A DNA stretch of 42,681 nucleotides from an uncultured Prevotellaceae bacterium (GTDB taxonomy: Bacteria > Bacteroidota > Bacteroidia > Bacteroidales > Muribaculaceae). The notes beneath the pieces are model-generated. The model ran no database searches and was not told the origin of the DNA. It worked only from the letters and a program-made list of their open reading frames with translations. The DNA is taken from NCBI GenBank assembly GCA_900317835.1, contig ONIL01000035.1, positions 1 to 42,681 of the forward strand, given 5' to 3'. Made by a program: the position numbers and the translations under genes. Positions 3,624 through 36,159 of this stretch are shown one piece after another; position 1 is the stretch's first letter, and each line of letters opens with the position of its first letter.

Positions 3624-3642
3624 GGGCCCCGTAGGGGGCCAC
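3624..3642. repeat. Left 19-bp REP-like inverted repeat of the RAYT element
   Basis: GGGCCCCGTAGGGGGCCAC is the exact reverse complement of 4164-4182. It ends directly at the transposase stop codon. Read on the minus strand it is a GTGG foot followed by a 6-bp GGCCCC/GGGGCC stem with a CTAC loop. This is the layout of REP sequences recognised by RAYT proteins. Confidence 0.85.
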
Positions 3643-4089
3643 TTAGGTCAGACGATAGTCATTCCACTCAATTCCAGCGTTTAGTATGTGTTTACGATAT
3701 TCATTTTCAAAGGTCTCCCGTTGATGATGAGTGCGCTGGTTCCTGATGTATTCGGCCACCATTTCCTTATCACGCAGTGCATAAGTGAAAGCCCCATACT
3801 CTTTCCCCCATCCTGCGAATAGTGGAAAAGACTCGCGATTTTGTTTGATCCACTGGCTTGTTGACAACTTGATGTCTCGTACGAGATCAGATAAACGCAC
3901 CGATGGATGGAGATTAATCAACAGGTGAATGTGATTCTCAATGCCATTGATGGCAAAGAGTGTCGATTGGGAGCTCTGCACAACACGCGCGATGTAACGA
4001 TACAACTGGTCGCACGAAGTGAGGGGCAAGGTCATCTCGCGCCTATAGGTATTGATAACGATATGATAGATGGCTGTTACTGCACTCAT
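3643..4089 (-). CDS. REP-associated tyrosine transposase (RAYT; IS200-like Y1 HUH superfamily)
   Basis: This 148-residue protein has the IS200/Y1 transposase fold. The HUH motif is HIHLL (about residues 53-57, in NGIENHIHLLI), and the likely catalytic Tyr lies in the downstream helix MVAEYIRNQ (about residue 114). RAYT proteins nick single-stranded DNA at REP hairpins and are thought to spread them; they are usually domesticated single-copy genes. Here the gene is bracketed by a perfect 19-bp inverted REP-like repeat and more hairpins, which supports RAYT over a free IS200 element. It has its own consensus promoter (4111-4142). Length fits the family and the frame is intact, so it is probably functional. 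Confidence 0.88.
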   Translation of the reverse strand: MSAVTAIYHIVINTYRREMTLPLTSCDQLYRYIARVVQSSQSTLFAINGIENHIHLLINLHPSVRLSDLVRDIKLSTSQWIKQNRESFPLFAGWGKEYGAFTYALRDKEMVAEYIRNQRTHHQRETFENEYRKHILNAGIEWNDYRLT

Positions 4090-4110
4090 AATATATCAGT
4101 TTTGAGATGA

Positions 4111-4142
4111 CAAAGTTACTATAAAATATAGAAGAGTGCAAA
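4111..4142 (-). promoter_or_regulatory. Consensus promoter of the RAYT gene
   Basis: On the minus strand TTTG (4142-4139), 20 bp, then TAACTTTG (4118-4111), a full match to the Bacteroidetes consensus. It lies 21 bp before the start codon and inside the REP-bounded unit. Confidence 0.75.
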
Positions 4143-4163
4143 ACTGAGCATCGCCTCTTGTGA

Positions 4164-4182
4164 GTGGCCCCCTACGGGGCCC
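4164..4182. repeat. Right 19-bp REP-like inverted repeat of the RAYT element
   Basis: GTGGCCCCCTACGGGGCCC is the perfect reverse complement of 3624-3642: a GTGG foot, then stem GGCCCC / GGGGCC with loop CTAC. Confidence 0.85.
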
Positions 4183-4394: not shown

Positions 4395-4442
4395 AAAATA
4401 CAGTGATGTCCGCCTCACAAGAGGCGGACATCACTGTATTTT
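4395..4442. terminator. 22-bp perfect hairpin, terminator for the metallopeptidase gene
   Basis: The two 22-nt arms (4395-4416 and 4421-4442) are perfect reverse complements around an ACAA loop. The stem has a GC-rich top (CGCCTC/GAGGCG) and an AAAA/TTTT base, so it can work as a terminator in both directions. It begins 16 bp after the stop codon of the minus-strand gene. Confidence 0.85.
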
Positions 4443-7696: not shown

Positions 7697-8968
7697 TTAC
7701 TTGTCGAAGCGGGATTTTTCTTGATTGGGGATAACCTGCAGCCACAGGTAGAGCTTGTCGCTGGGGCGGATTTTCTCGGGTACGGCAATTGAGAAATGCT
7801 CGCCCTTGACGGTTTTCTCAACGGGCTTGAGATCGACGCGTATTTCCTCAATCGTCAAGGGGATAGCGCCTGTAGTGGGGCCGATGATCCATGCTTCGTC
7901 GCCCACGTGCAGCTCGCCCGCTTCCATGAGGAACTCGGCAACACCCAGTTTGCTATAATAGCGGATGCCCTTGGCGACATAGTGCTTGACGCGGGTGGCG
8001 CTGGAGCCGTATTTGGCCGACCATTCGCCCAACCGTTGGCCCATGTAGTAGCCGTCCCAGAAACCACGGTTGAACACCTTGGCCAGCCTCTCGTTCCACT
8101 CCTCGATGCGCTCCTCGGAATAAGTGCCGTCACAGATGGCGTTCAGGGCCTCGTCGTAGCAGCCAGCCACCGTGCGCACATACTCGGCACCACGTGCTCG
8201 GCCCTCGATCTTAAAGACGGTCACTCCCGCATCCACCATCTTGTTGAGGAAGTGGATGGTTTTCAGATCCTTGGGCGACATGATGTACTTGTTCTCGATG
8301 GCGAGTTCGTCGCCATTCTCGCGGTCGGTGACAATGTAGCCTCGACGGCAAATCTGGCGGCAGGCCCCGCGATTGGCACTGGTGTTCTCCTGGTGCAGGC
8401 TCATGTAACACTTGCCGCTCACCGCCATACACAGCGCTCCGTGACAGAACATTTCCAGTCTCACGCGCTCGCAGTGCGGGCCGCGAACGTCATTTTCCTC
8501 GATGAAACCGCTGATTTTCTTCACCTGATCGAGGTTGAGCTCGCGTGCGAGGACCATCACGTCGGCCCACTCGCTATAGTAACGAACCGCCTCGCTATTG
8601 CTCACGTTGACCTGGGTGGAGATGTGCACTTCCACGCCGATGCTGCGTGCAAACAGGATGGTTGCCATGTCGCTGGCGATGATGGCACTAACACGGGCAT
8701 CGCGAGCGGCAGTGACAATCTGGCGCATGTAGTCCATGTCCTCGTCATAGACGATGGTGTTGACTGTCAAGTAGCTTTTCATGCCGTGCTCGTGACACCA
8801 CTCGGCAATAGTGCGCAGGTCGTCAAGGGTGAAATTAACGCTCGAACGCGATCGCATGTTCAAGCCCTCGATGCCAAAGTAGATGGCATCGGCACCACCC
8901 TGGTGGGCGGCATATAGCGATTCCCAAGAGCCCACAGGGGCCATGATTTCAAAATCAACACGATTCAT
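7697..8968 (-). CDS. U32-family peptidase / tRNA uridine 5-hydroxylase (TrhP/YegQ-like)
   Basis: This 423-residue protein has the N-terminal (beta/alpha) barrel of the U32 family (EIMAPVGSWESLYAAHQGGA) and the family signature EMFCHGALC. Cys175, Cys180 and Cys187, with Cys203 and Cys207, are candidates for the Fe-S cluster reported in the TrhP group. E. coli YegQ/TrhP makes 5-hydroxyuridine at tRNA position 34 using prephenate; other members were described as collagenases. The RNA role is more likely for this Cys-rich form, but the sequence does not settle it. The gene lies downstream of mutS on the same strand, separated by the GxxExxY cassette, whose left repeat ends 16 bp before this start codon. 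Confidence 0.87.
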   Translation of the reverse strand: MNRVDFEIMAPVGSWESLYAAHQGGADAIYFGIEGLNMRSRSSVNFTLDDLRTIAEWCHEHGMKSYLTVNTIVYDEDMDYMRQIVTAARDARVSAIIASDMATILFARSIGVEVHISTQVNVSNSEAVRYYSEWADVMVLARELNLDQVKKISGFIEENDVRGPHCERVRLEMFCHGALCMAVSGKCYMSLHQENTSANRGACRQICRRGYIVTDRENGDELAIENKYIMSPKDLKTIHFLNKMVDAGVTVFKIEGRARGAEYVRTVAGCYDEALNAICDGTYSEERIEEWNERLAKVFNRGFWDGYYMGQRLGEWSAKYGSSATRVKHYVAKGIRYYSKLGVAEFLMEAGELHVGDEAWIIGPTTGAIPLTIEEIRVDLKPVEKTVKGEHFSIAVPEKIRPSDKLYLWLQVIPNQEKSRFDK

Positions 8969-8984
8969 ATATCATATCTTTTTT

Positions 8985-9021
8985 AACTACGAATTACACG
9001 AATTAAACGAATGGCATCCGC
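8985..9021. repeat. Left terminal inverted repeat of the GxxExxY cassette
   Basis: This 37-nt arm matches the reverse complement of 9499-9536 at 35 positions, with two substitutions and one indel. It contains tandem CGAATTA-like units. The plus-strand flank is a T run on both sides (8979-8984 and after 9536), which may be a short target duplication. Confidence 0.85.
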
Positions 9022-9075
9022 GTTCTTATTATATCAAATTATGCGAATTGAGTATTGCATATAATTGTAGGTTAG

Positions 9076-9468
9076 TTACTTAGATGCGTTTTTGTTGATG
9101 TTGCAGAAACGCTCAGTTTTTAAACTGGTTTCGCCAAAATTGGCAAGGATTCCCAACTCATAGCCTGTTGCTTTCAGATAATTGATGACTTGGGCTTTTT
9201 CAACATCTGACATCTTGCTGATGGCTTTCAATTCGACAATAATCTTGCCGTAGCACACAAAATCAGCGATATACTCTTGCTGTAAAGGAACTCCTTTATA
9301 GTATATCTTCAAATTGACTTCTCTTTGGAAAGGAATTCCCTCATCGATGAATTCGCGTTCTAATGCTTCCTGATAAACTTTCTCCAGGAATCCGCAACCC
9401 AATTCACGATGAACCCTCATCATGCAACCAATAATTTTATATGATTCTTCCGGATAGATGATTGTCAT
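9076..9468 (-). CDS. GxxExxY family protein (PD-(D/E)XK nuclease-like)
   Basis: This 130-residue protein carries the family signature GFLEKVY (Gly26, Glu29, Tyr32). It also has a nuclease-like core in which Asp69 (YIADFVC) and Glu79-x-Lys81 (VELKA) fit a PD-(D/E)XK active site. All four key positions are intact. The family is common in gut Bacteroidetes and many other bacteria, but its function is not established. The gene is enclosed by long inverted repeats, and the surrounding DNA is more AT-rich than the flanking housekeeping genes. Both points suggest acquisition as a cassette. No typical promoter was seen; a weak CGAATTTG lies just upstream. Confidence 0.85.
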   Translation of the reverse strand: MTIIYPEESYKIIGCMMRVHRELGCGFLEKVYQEALEREFIDEGIPFQREVNLKIYYKGVPLQQEYIADFVCYGKIIVELKAISKMSDVEKAQVINYLKATGYELGILANFGETSLKTERFCNINKNASK

Positions 9469-9498
9469 GTCAATTAGTCAAATTCGTTATAATTGAGT

Positions 9499-9536
9499 GC
9501 GGATGCCAATTAGTTTAATTCGCGTAATTCGTAGTT
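9499..9536. repeat. Right terminal inverted repeat of the GxxExxY cassette
   Basis: This 38-nt arm is the near-perfect reverse complement of 8985-9021. It contains CAATTAG (9507-9513) and CGTAATTCGTAGTT (9523-9536), both present at 36139-36159. Confidence 0.85.
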
Positions 9537-9544
9537 TTTTAGAA

Positions 9545-12166
9545 TTATCGTTGTTTCTTGCCTGTGAGGATGCCCTTGATATCATAGAGTTTGTTCAGGG
9601 CCTCGACGGGCGTGAGGTTGTTGATGTCGATGGTGAGTATCTCGTCGCGGATTTGACTCAGCACGGGGTCATCGAGCTGGAAAATCGACAACTGGTAGCC
9701 TGAGCGGTTGGCAGCAACGTCGCCCAGATCCTTGGTGACGGCATTGCCTCCCTGGCTGTTGGCCTCGAGTTGCTTGAGCACCTCGTCGGCGCGCTTGACA
9801 ATGCTTGGTGGCATGCCCGCCAGTTTAGCGACATGAATACCGAAGCTGTGCTCACTGCCACCCTTGACCAACTGGCGCACAAACACGACCTTGCCGTTGA
9901 TTTCCTTGACCGAAACATTATAATTGACGATGCGCTTGAACGACTTCTCCATCTCGTTCAACTCATGATAGTGGGTGGCAAAGAGCGTCTTGGGCCGTGC
10001 GGCATGCTCGTGGATGTGCTCGACGATGCTCCATGCGATGGATATGCCGTCATAGGTGCTTGTGCCGCGGCCCAACTCGTCGAACAGGATGAGGCTGCGC
10101 TGGCTCATGTTGTTGAGGATGGCAGCGGCCTCGGTCATCTCGACCATGAAGGTCGATTCGCCCAGCGAGATATTGTCGCTGGCTCCCACGCGGGTGAAAA
10201 TCTTGTCCACGATGCCGATACGGGCCTGTTCGGCAGGCACGAAACTGCCCATTTGTGCCATCAGGGTGATGAGGGCGGTCTGTCGCAGCAGGGCCGATTT
10301 ACCGGCCATGTTGGGACCGGTGATGATCATGATCTGCTGGTCGTCGTTGCTCAGGCGGATGCTGTTGGGCACATAGGTCTCGCCTGGGGGTAACTGGCAC
10401 TCGATGACAGGATGCCGGCCCATGGCGATGTCAATGTCCAGGCTGTCGTCGAGCACGGGACGGTTGTAACGGTTTTCCATCGCCACACGCGTCAGGGCAT
10501 TGAGGCAATCGAGTTGTGCGATGATGGCGCTGTCGCCTTGGATGGCTGGGATATACTCGGTGACTGCAGTGACCAGTTCGTTGAACAGGCGCGTCTCGAT
10601 GATGAGAATCTTCTCCTCGGCGCCCAGAATTTTCTCCTCATATTCCTTGAGTTCCTGGGTCACATAACGCTCGGCATTGACTAGCGTCTGCTTGCGTATC
10701 CACTCAGGTGGCACTTTGTCCTTGTGGGTGTTGCGCACCTCGATGTAGTAGCCGAACACGTTGTTATAGGCTATTTTCAGGCTTGGAATACCTGTCTGGT
10801 CACTCAGGCTGCGCTGCATGGCTACAAGGTAGTCCTTTCCACTGCTCGAGATGTCGCGCAGTTCATCAAGTTGATCATCCACGCCGTGACGGATGACGTT
10901 GCCGCGGTTGGTCTGATTGGGCGCATCAGGGTTGATTTCGCGCTCAATGCGGTCGCGGATGATAGTACAAGGGTTCAACTGTTCGCCCAGGTTGTTCAGC
11001 ACGTCGCATGCCGCTTGTTGGCAGTATTGCTTGATGGGCTCGATAGCCTGCAGGGCATTCTTGAGTTGGACCAGCTCGCGTGGGGTGATGCGACCCACGG
11101 CAGCCTTGGATGTGAGCCGTTCCAGGTCGCCGATGAGTTCCAGCCGCTCCTTGACCAGATCGCGTCCCTCGGGGTCACGCATGAAGTGCTCGATAACATC
11201 CAGGCGGCGGTTGATAGCCTTGGCGTCCTGCAAGGGGAAAAGAATCCAACGCCTGATCATGCGCCCACCCATCGGTGAAATGGTGCGGTCGATGACGTCG
11301 AGCAGCGACTTGCCGTCATCATTCATGGGCTCAACAAGCTCCAGGTTGCGGATGGTGAACTTGTCGAGGCGCACGTAGCGCTCGGCCTCGATGCGCGACA
11401 GCGTGGTGATGTGTCCCAATTGAGTGTGCTGGGTGATATCCAAGTAATGGAGAATGGCGCCGCTGGCGATGATAGCGTTGTCCATTTTTGTGATGCCGAA
11501 GCCCTTGAGGCTGCGTGTCTCGAAGTGCTTCAACAGACGGTCATTGGCCGACTCCAGGGTGAAAACCCAGTCCTCGAGTTCGAACGTCAGGTAGCGCGAC
11601 GAGAAGGTGGCAGTGAAGCGCTGGCGGTTGCTGCGCTCGATGAGCACCTCCTTGGGAGAAAAATTGACCAGCAGTTTATCGACATACTCCTCATTACCCT
11701 CGGCGGTGAGGAATTCGCCGGTGCTGATGTCGAGGAACGCCACGCCGAGCATCTTTTTCCCAAAATGCACTGCGGCAAGGAAGTTATTCTCCTTGCGGTC
11801 GAGCATCGTGCCGCCCACGACCACGCCAGGCGTCACCAGTTCGGTGATGCCGCGTTTGACGAGTTTCTTGGTCAGTTTGGGATCTTCCAGCTGGTCACAG
11901 ATGGCGACGCGCTTGCCGGCACGCACCAGCTTGGGCAGATAAGTGTCGAGCGCATGATGGGGAAAACCCGCCATCTCGGTCGCTGACGCGGCTCCATTAC
12001 TGCGCCGCGTCAAGGTAATGCCCAGGATCTCGCTGGCGGTCACCGCATCCTGCAGGTAGGTCTCATAGAAGTCTCCCACACGGAACAGCAGTATTGCGTC
12101 GGGATGCTTGGCCTTCATCGCGACAAACTGCTTCATCATCGGTGTATTTAGCGGGTCTTTTCCCAT
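9545..12166 (-). CDS. mutS: DNA mismatch repair protein MutS
   Basis: MutS recognises mismatches and small loops in newly copied DNA and recruits MutL. The 873-residue protein has the mismatch-contacting motif GDFYE near the N-terminus. The C-terminal ABC-type ATPase has Walker [14 protein letters not shown] (about residue 615) and Walker [16 protein letters not shown] (about 691). I chose ATG 12166 ([14 protein letters not shown]). A longer version starts with TTG at 12199, but that codon lies inside a TAACTTTG -7 box, so it should not be translated. The length is typical of MutS1. The zinc-ribbon gene lies upstream on the same strand; the GxxExxY cassette abuts the 3' end. Confidence 0.96.
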
Positions 12167-12196
12167 TGTGTCGGCATCAAAATGATTTTTAACCCA

Positions 12197-12204
12197 CAAA
12201 GTTA
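12197..12204 (-). promoter_or_regulatory. -7 box for mutS
   Basis: Minus-strand TAACTTTG, 30 bp before the chosen mutS start. It covers the alternative TTG start at 12199 and therefore argues for ATG 12166. Confidence 0.5.
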
Positions 12205-36052: not shown

Positions 36053-36104
36053 ACTTCACTAAAAAGGCGCCGTACTGATCAACTGAATCGGCCCTATAAA
36101 TGGC

Positions 36105-36159
36105 GAATTACGCTAATTGGACGACTTTGACATCGTGGCAATTAGCGTAATTCGTAGTT
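36105..36159. repeat. Solo palindromic element related to the GxxExxY cassette ends
   Basis: Perfect 15-bp arms GAATTACGCTAATTG (36105-36119) and CAATTAGCGTAATTC (36139-36153) flank a 19-nt centre. The right side continues as CGTAATTCGTAGTT (36146-36159), identical to 9523-9536, and CAATTAG matches 9507-9513. It lies in the 270-bp gap between the M16 gene and rimP and has no ORF. It looks like a MITE-type derivative. Confidence 0.75.

Follow-up and report, generated by a model that had tools for sequence, protein, structure and literature searches.

The locus at positions 8985-9536 of the window, by which is meant the whole stretch of 42,681 nucleotides analysed, consists of a small GxxExxY gene enclosed by two inverted arms. 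On balance, it is considered to be a copy of a gene-bearing palindrome of the REPIN/RAYT-like kind, in which an unrelated nuclease would recognise the arms and promote occasional copying or insertion. The architecture recurs at numerous sites, in several phyla and with variable occupancy, and it is accompanied by relics and by dispersed copies that lack an ORF. The elements tend to lie just past the stop codon of a same-strand gene, and purifying selection acts on the protein. The recurrence in the genome of origin, in its relatives and in distant phyla is suggestive of a mobile element of a kind that has attracted little notice. GxxExxY genes are common, yet the family names (TIGR04256, PF13366) give no function.

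The locus and its protein

The features of the locus, with its neighbours and one related palindrome, are as follows.

9076-9468 (-): GxxExxY gene, 130 amino acids, predicted PD-(D/E)XK fold; conserved D and ExK present
8985-9021 (+): inverted arm adjoining the U32 gene, 37 nt; CGAATT units of about 9 nt, plus GGCATCCGC
9499-9536 (-): inverted arm adjoining mutS, 38 nt; the upstream arm of the GxxExxY gene
8985-9051 (+): imperfect extension of the U32-side arm, 67 nt; from alignment (score 66) and folding
9470-9536 (-): imperfect extension of the mutS-side arm, 67 nt; weaker pairing
9545-12199 (-): mutS, same-strand upstream neighbour, given for context; MutS model PRK05399, 1021.5 bits
7697-8968 (-): U32 family gene, same-strand downstream neighbour, given for context; Peptidase_U32, 209.3 bits
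36104-36154 (no strand): ORF-less palindrome of the CGAATT type, with 16-nt perfect arms and a 19-nt loop, situated past an M16 peptidase gene

The initial annotation had described an ORF of 130 residues with an intact GxxExxY motif and D-ExK residues inside arms of 37 and 38 nt, and its coordinates, mismatches, spacers and T runs were all confirmed. The arm pair 8985-9021/9499-9536 has 35 matches, 2 substitutions and 1 indel; the gap-free portion detected in a repeat search is 8985-9012/9509-9536, at 93%. The cassette is separated by 8 bp from mutS (end 9545) and by 16 bp from the U32 gene (start 8968), and both of its ends are bordered by A/T runs. The minus strand of 8968-9545 folds with a z value of -8.28, and none of 100 shuffled sequences folded equally well. 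The inverted ends and the short ORF-less relatives recall MITEs and insertion sequences. However, the GxxExxY ORF is the only gene in the unit, it matches TIGR04256 and PF13366 only, profile searches gave no match of a DDE or HUH enzyme to it, and no target duplication was defined. The IVP family (PF05635) likewise gave no match to this ORF in a profile search.

The window protein is a clear member of the GxxExxY/PDDEXK_3 family. It scores 148.2 bits against TIGR04256, where the curated cut-off is 35 bits, and 139.4 bits against Pfam PDDEXK_3 (PF13366). Residues Gly26, Glu29 and Tyr32 of the motif, together with Asp69, Glu79 and Lys81, are invariant in all 37 aligned proteins, the window protein among them. 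In a Foldseek search with the predicted structure (pLDDT 94), the best matches among solved structures were LHK-Exo (3syy, E 1.5e-4), SSO0001 (4ic1), MGME1 and lambda exonuclease. The TM value for 4ic1, by query length, is 0.58 for chain A and 0.59 for chain G; SSO0001 is a Cas4 protein. By its modelled structure the window protein is a member of the PD-(D/E)XK superfamily, and it is important to note that Foldseek gives the superfamily and no specific function.

The palindromic packaging of this family was not found in the literature searched: searches of the open-licence PMC literature gave no title or abstract that places GxxExxY genes within palindromic arms, and the papers found to contain the word GxxExxY mention it in passing. 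A match to an arm-like word, in a paper on Bacteroides fragilis, proved to be a PCR primer (PMC3090145).

Copies, sites and occupancy in the genome and genus

Arms of this kind also occur elsewhere. The arm pattern, allowing up to 3 mismatches, has 39 matches in the 3.07-Mb genome of origin and further matches in relatives, while the reversed pattern has none in that genome. Inspection of 28 of the arm stretches gave 17 ORF-less palindromes, 1 gene-bearing copy and 10 stretches for which a partner arm was not found. The ORF-less palindromes of this genome are about 50-100 bp long. One of them, 74 nt in length, has two near-copies elsewhere in the genome, one at 91% across 67 nt and the other at 90% across 69 nt, the centre included. 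Three GxxExxY loci are present in the genome, all within inverted arms, and one is apparently frameshifted. The third copy (L006, C22 at 79.7 kb) has different arms, the ends of which are GC-rich hairpins, CCGTGCTTCGCACGG and CCGCCCGTCAGGGCGG, with a REP-like look. The palindrome at 36104-36154 of the window lies about 50 bp past the stop codon of the M16 peptidase gene and is too diverged for the pattern that gave the 39 hits.

Flanking inverted repeats were scored at 31 loci of the genus, namely 2 from the genome of origin and the 29 best-scoring from relatives. All 31 have scores between 26 and 81, as compared with a mean of 16.7 and a maximum of 26 for shuffled sequences; the weakest locus, L049, merely ties the best shuffle. 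A second null, in which the left arm was aligned with the right arm of another locus, gave a mean of 24.2, a 95% point of 55 and a maximum of 91. These cross-locus scores are high because many arms are alike, and most single arm scores are therefore not above the level of related arms.

The interval between mutS and the U32 gene was surveyed in 68 stretches, the window's own included. The U32 gene was not recognised as the next gene in 36 of these, and the contents of the remaining 32 were tallied by eye. A full cassette is found in 8 (again with the window's own), a rearranged one in 1 and a truncated one in 2, while 4 carry an ORF-less palindrome with the same arms and 2 have other content. 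Twelve are occupied by other periodic palindromes, of the TAAGTTT type (5), the TCTAGA type (4) and the CCTTAAAG type (3). The last 3, from diverged relatives, are palindrome-free spacers of 2, 17 and 52 bp. The gene is thus not a constant inhabitant of the mutS-U32 interval, as spacers without it occur among the relatives. Arms confined to this one locus, or a gene always present here, would have refuted the reading of the initial annotation, and neither is the case. That annotation had also proposed to look for empty sites here; variable occupancy and palindrome-free spacers were found, but these spacers belong to diverged relatives and are not clean empty alleles. The palindromes of CCTTAAAG and TCTAGA units lie in the mutS-U32 spacers of L081, L099, L243, L097, L242, L246 and L255, and palindromes that look like those of IVP genes occupy this interval in five species.

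Presence and absence of the cassette are also seen beyond mutS-U32. At a second site, represented by 30 stretches (the downstream gene was recognised in 29, which were read by eye), a full cassette is present in 4 and decayed contents within arms in 2. The other 23 of the 29 have no such arms at the junction, and 6 of these 23 bear a different short CGAATT palindrome. In L310, L313, L318 and L332, compared with L311, L315, L316 and L322, the cassette stands in place of a native spacer of about 100-120 bp. It seems to replace the native spacer at this site rather than to interrupt it. No target-site duplication was apparent by eye at mutS-U32 or at the second site; at both, the cassette-free sites are too diverged for junctions to be placed.

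Arms and gene together recur at different sites, which the initial annotation had named as support for its reading: the 41 genus elements represent no fewer than 18 site groups. This number is a lower bound because flank similarity grouped L062 with the second site, while other analyses place it elsewhere; the set leaves out L002, L046, L308 and L309, which are not placeable. At one shared site, L296 has CGAATT arms and a protein closest to those of CGAATT elements elsewhere (0.67-0.71, against at most 0.59 for proteins of the same site). The protein of L058, at this same site, is also closest to one from another site with the same arm type (0.76, against at most 0.62). On a protein tree of 27 rows, in which proteins at least 80% alike were collapsed and the arm labels of L049, L053, L064, L069 and L304 were set by hand, arm type clusters with 7 changes, compared with a mean of 12.9 for shuffled labels, and none of 200 shuffles did as well. 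With one element per site there are 7 changes against 8.8 shuffled (23 of 200 shuffles, not significant), and a co-evolution of arm and protein independent of site was not established at this level.

Between the mutS-U32 copies the median dN/dS is 0.087 (28 pairs from 8 species), a value of purifying selection. A host gene could show an equally low dN/dS. Such a gene might encode a nuclease acting in repair or defence, or a regulator; the flanking arms would be its operators, the dispersed palindromes would serve as additional binding sites or make up a regulon, and any mobility would be incidental. In agreement with this, the cassette has been kept at mutS-U32 in 8 species. Relatives of the gene product are also rare on mobile replicons, as a single query protein at E 1e-5 found them on 7 of 72,556 plasmids and another single query found them on 0 of 50,697 phages. 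However, the gene is patchily distributed (74 of 148 genomes sampled from the phylum) and its sites are varied. Frameshifted and truncated copies exist, and so do ORF-less elements that have been copied. A host role of this kind is regarded as rather unlikely. An excerpt of PMC12085832 describes an alga-infecting virus that carries a gene annotated GxxExxY.

Within the genus, the gene is found in 89 of 101 genomes, with 1-9 matches per positive genome, fragments counted. These matches are few and diverged, and movement is therefore rare or old. The number of arm matches in a genome follows how close its best protein is to that of the window (Spearman 0.59, 101 genomes, kinship uncorrected). 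The median arm count is 25 in the 30 genomes that have a protein at E<1e-44 and 0 in the other 71; as exceptions, 16 of the 101 genomes have at least 10 arms yet no close protein. The 12 genomes of the genus without a GxxExxY match have 0-7 arm matches each.

A transposase gene in the window could conceivably move the cassettes in trans. Window positions 3624-4182 contain a Y1_Tnp gene (IS200-like, PF01797; 3643-4089, minus strand) inside its own GC-rich inverted repeats, which together look like a RAYT-like unit. It is the one PF01797 match found in the genome of origin, and 92 of the 101 genus genomes have such a gene. However, its repeats are unlike the CGAATT arms, and individual examples show that the two features may occur apart. 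There are 25 arm matches in genome G013 and 33 in G089, neither of which has a Y1 match; G042, with 12 Y1 matches, and G002, with 8, are without an arm match. Mobilisation by the Y1 transposase is the least probable of the explanations considered.

Arm grammar and position in other phyla

For the wider survey, 80 named loci from several phyla were compared. They are the best 80 of 578 candidates kept, the ranking being by similarity to a GPGLLES-subgroup protein from Bacteroidota, while the GCGFLE subgroup of the window protein was surveyed in the genus only. Twenty of the 80 lie outside Bacteroidota, Ignavibacteria and Chlorobi, the groups being assigned from record titles. The inverted-repeat test was applied to 78 of them, as L139 and L197 were short of flank. 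The repeats beat 100 shuffles at 48 of the 78 loci. In a rerun the figure was 51 of 78, compared with 3 of 43 for neighbour genes, and 27 loci had no significant inverted repeat. Of 29 loci in the phylum sample, 21 exceeded their own shuffles; 2 of the 29 were mis-called (L120, with the strand wrong, and L132). The shuffles for this sample, for both runs on the named loci and for the IVP loci described below permute two-base blocks.

The arms share a degenerate unit, C[AG]CN[AG]A[GT], and successive units are mostly 9-10 nt apart. At least two inward units on each side are found in 50 of the 80 named loci, where 2 of 44 controls have them. The corresponding figures for the genus-plus-phylum set (L046 and L132 left out) are 30 of 58 loci and 0 of 8 controls. 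This test is not blind, because the motif was derived with the arms of these very loci already in view. By group, the units occur in 37 of 60 loci from Bacteroidota, Ignavibacteria and Chlorobi, 5 of 5 from Cyanobacteria, 3 of 4 from Chloroflexota, 2 of 5 from Planctomycetota, 1 of 2 from Acidobacteriota and in the single loci from Bacillota and from an unclassified source, and they are lacking in the single loci from Verrucomicrobiota and Lentisphaerota.

These controls bear on a neutral explanation, in which the palindromes would be kept symmetrical by template switching, a process known as quasipalindrome correction, and the protein would have no function. The arms do match within an element: in 17 of 37 genus elements the two arms match each other better than any arm of the same type from another site, where 3.1 would be expected. 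Several unrelated palindrome types in the same mutS-U32 spacer would also agree with such a process. However, it leaves unexplained the joint occurrence of one protein family and one arm grammar in several phyla, as well as the dN/dS of about 0.09, and arms are rare around the control genes both as inverted repeats and as units. This explanation appears very unlikely.

The elements tend to occupy a particular position. Of 68 named loci, 62 have an upstream neighbour that shares their strand, compared with 58 of 84 control pairs (p = 0.0011), and the arm begins between -15 and +20 nt from the stop codon of the upstream gene in 26 of 39 named loci, with ORFs called mechanically. A location directly past stop codons on the same strand, the A and T runs at the ends and the strong fold would all be expected of an element acting in RNA. 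The palindrome would then be a 3'-UTR hairpin, a terminator or a processing site like the 23S rRNA intervening sequences, and the gene a passenger of the transcript. The IVP genes, which encode the protein type of those intervening sequences, have analogous arms. However, there is no excess of arm mismatches that would be tolerated in RNA: in 95 of 143 elements (those with a score of at least 28), 104 mismatches are G-U-compatible in the sense RNA and 130 are not, a difference (p = 0.10) in the direction opposite to that of RNA pairing. The unit grammar recurs across phyla and is not needed for pairing alone, and no Rfam family is above threshold anywhere in the window. An RNA-level role is considered unlikely.

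Comparison with known systems and a possible mechanism

It is important to compare the cassette with REPIN/RAYT systems, as outlined in excerpts of PMC2817692 and PMC3733652. In both cases a small nuclease-type gene lies within inverted palindromic repeats and many ORF-less copies are present. The number of repeats follows the presence of the gene in both, here with the uncorrected correlation and the 16 exceptions given above. The differences lie in the enzyme, which is PD-(D/E)XK here and a Y1 HUH transposase there; in the arms, which here are runs of units about 9-10 nt apart; and in the rate of change, as rayt is described as evolving rapidly in the excerpt of PMC2817692 and the GxxExxY gene is strongly constrained. 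According to the excerpt of PMC3733652, REPs carry GTAG at one end. By eye, the CGAATT-type arms end in CTAC...GTAG, while arms of the ATGCG, CAGATT and CACAGAG types do not. The Y1 enzyme, the defining feature of REPIN/RAYT, is absent from the cassette, and the element is therefore not classed as such.

The 23S rRNA intervening sequences with IVP/S23 proteins also have a small ORF in a long inverted-repeat hairpin, as described in part of PMC4990558. They contain a different protein family and lie in rRNA, whereas the GxxExxY unit lies between protein genes. Of 99 phylum genomes, 75 have IVP (23S_rRNA_IVP) genes, and free-standing genes of this type are likewise placed in periodic inverted arms, with repeats above their own shuffles at 16 of 30 loci tested. 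Their units, judged by eye, are about 7 nt long, compared with about 9-10 nt in the GxxExxY cassettes. One of the 30, L044 (C28 of the genome of origin, about 905-1340), has a 23S_rRNA_IVP gene within inverted arms of TTAGTCC units of about 7 nt.

For the preferred reading, that of a gene-bearing palindrome with its own nuclease, the following course of events may be proposed. Two inverted arms of degenerate units, spaced by about 9-10 nt, enclose a small gene for a putative PD-(D/E)XK nuclease. The arms are probably the DNA target of the GxxExxY protein, which could recognise the units as double-stranded or hairpin DNA. We infer that the protein has nuclease activity and that the element is moved or copied by it; no transposition event was seen. 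The small insertion system proposed in the initial annotation, whose protein might mobilise or resolve its own palindromic ends, is partly supported by the recurrence of the unit, by the variable occupancy of mutS-U32 and by the second site. The ORF-less derivatives, the unit grammar of other phyla, the location past stop codons and the IVP cassettes go beyond that annotation. The protein would now and then bring about the copying or insertion of its palindrome, much as has been proposed for RAYT transposases acting on REPs. The ORF-less palindromes with the same ends might be non-autonomous derivatives that arose by internal deletion and were also copied as units. Insertions would be found, or tolerated, right after a same-strand stop codon, where transcription from upstream could read the nuclease gene.

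A wider proposal, which we put forward only tentatively, is that the GxxExxY cassettes form a separate class of mobile palindromes in several phyla, the nuclease propagating its arm array by acting on a hairpin that is extruded where genes have their 3' ends. The 23S-IVP cassettes with their units of about 7 nt might be a second, parallel class, and a family of "periodic palindromes" might thus have gone unnoticed beside the REPINs. If the arms are indeed the substrate, a role open to testing could be assigned to the large and uncharacterised GxxExxY family, and the origin of many intergenic palindromes in several phyla would be explained. Short palindromic repeats would then have PD-(D/E)XK enzymes as partners in addition to HUH enzymes.

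The window contains one further inverted repeat, at 4395-4442. It is a perfect repeat of 22 bp around a loop of 4 nt; a T-rich stretch follows, and the whole is terminator-like in appearance.
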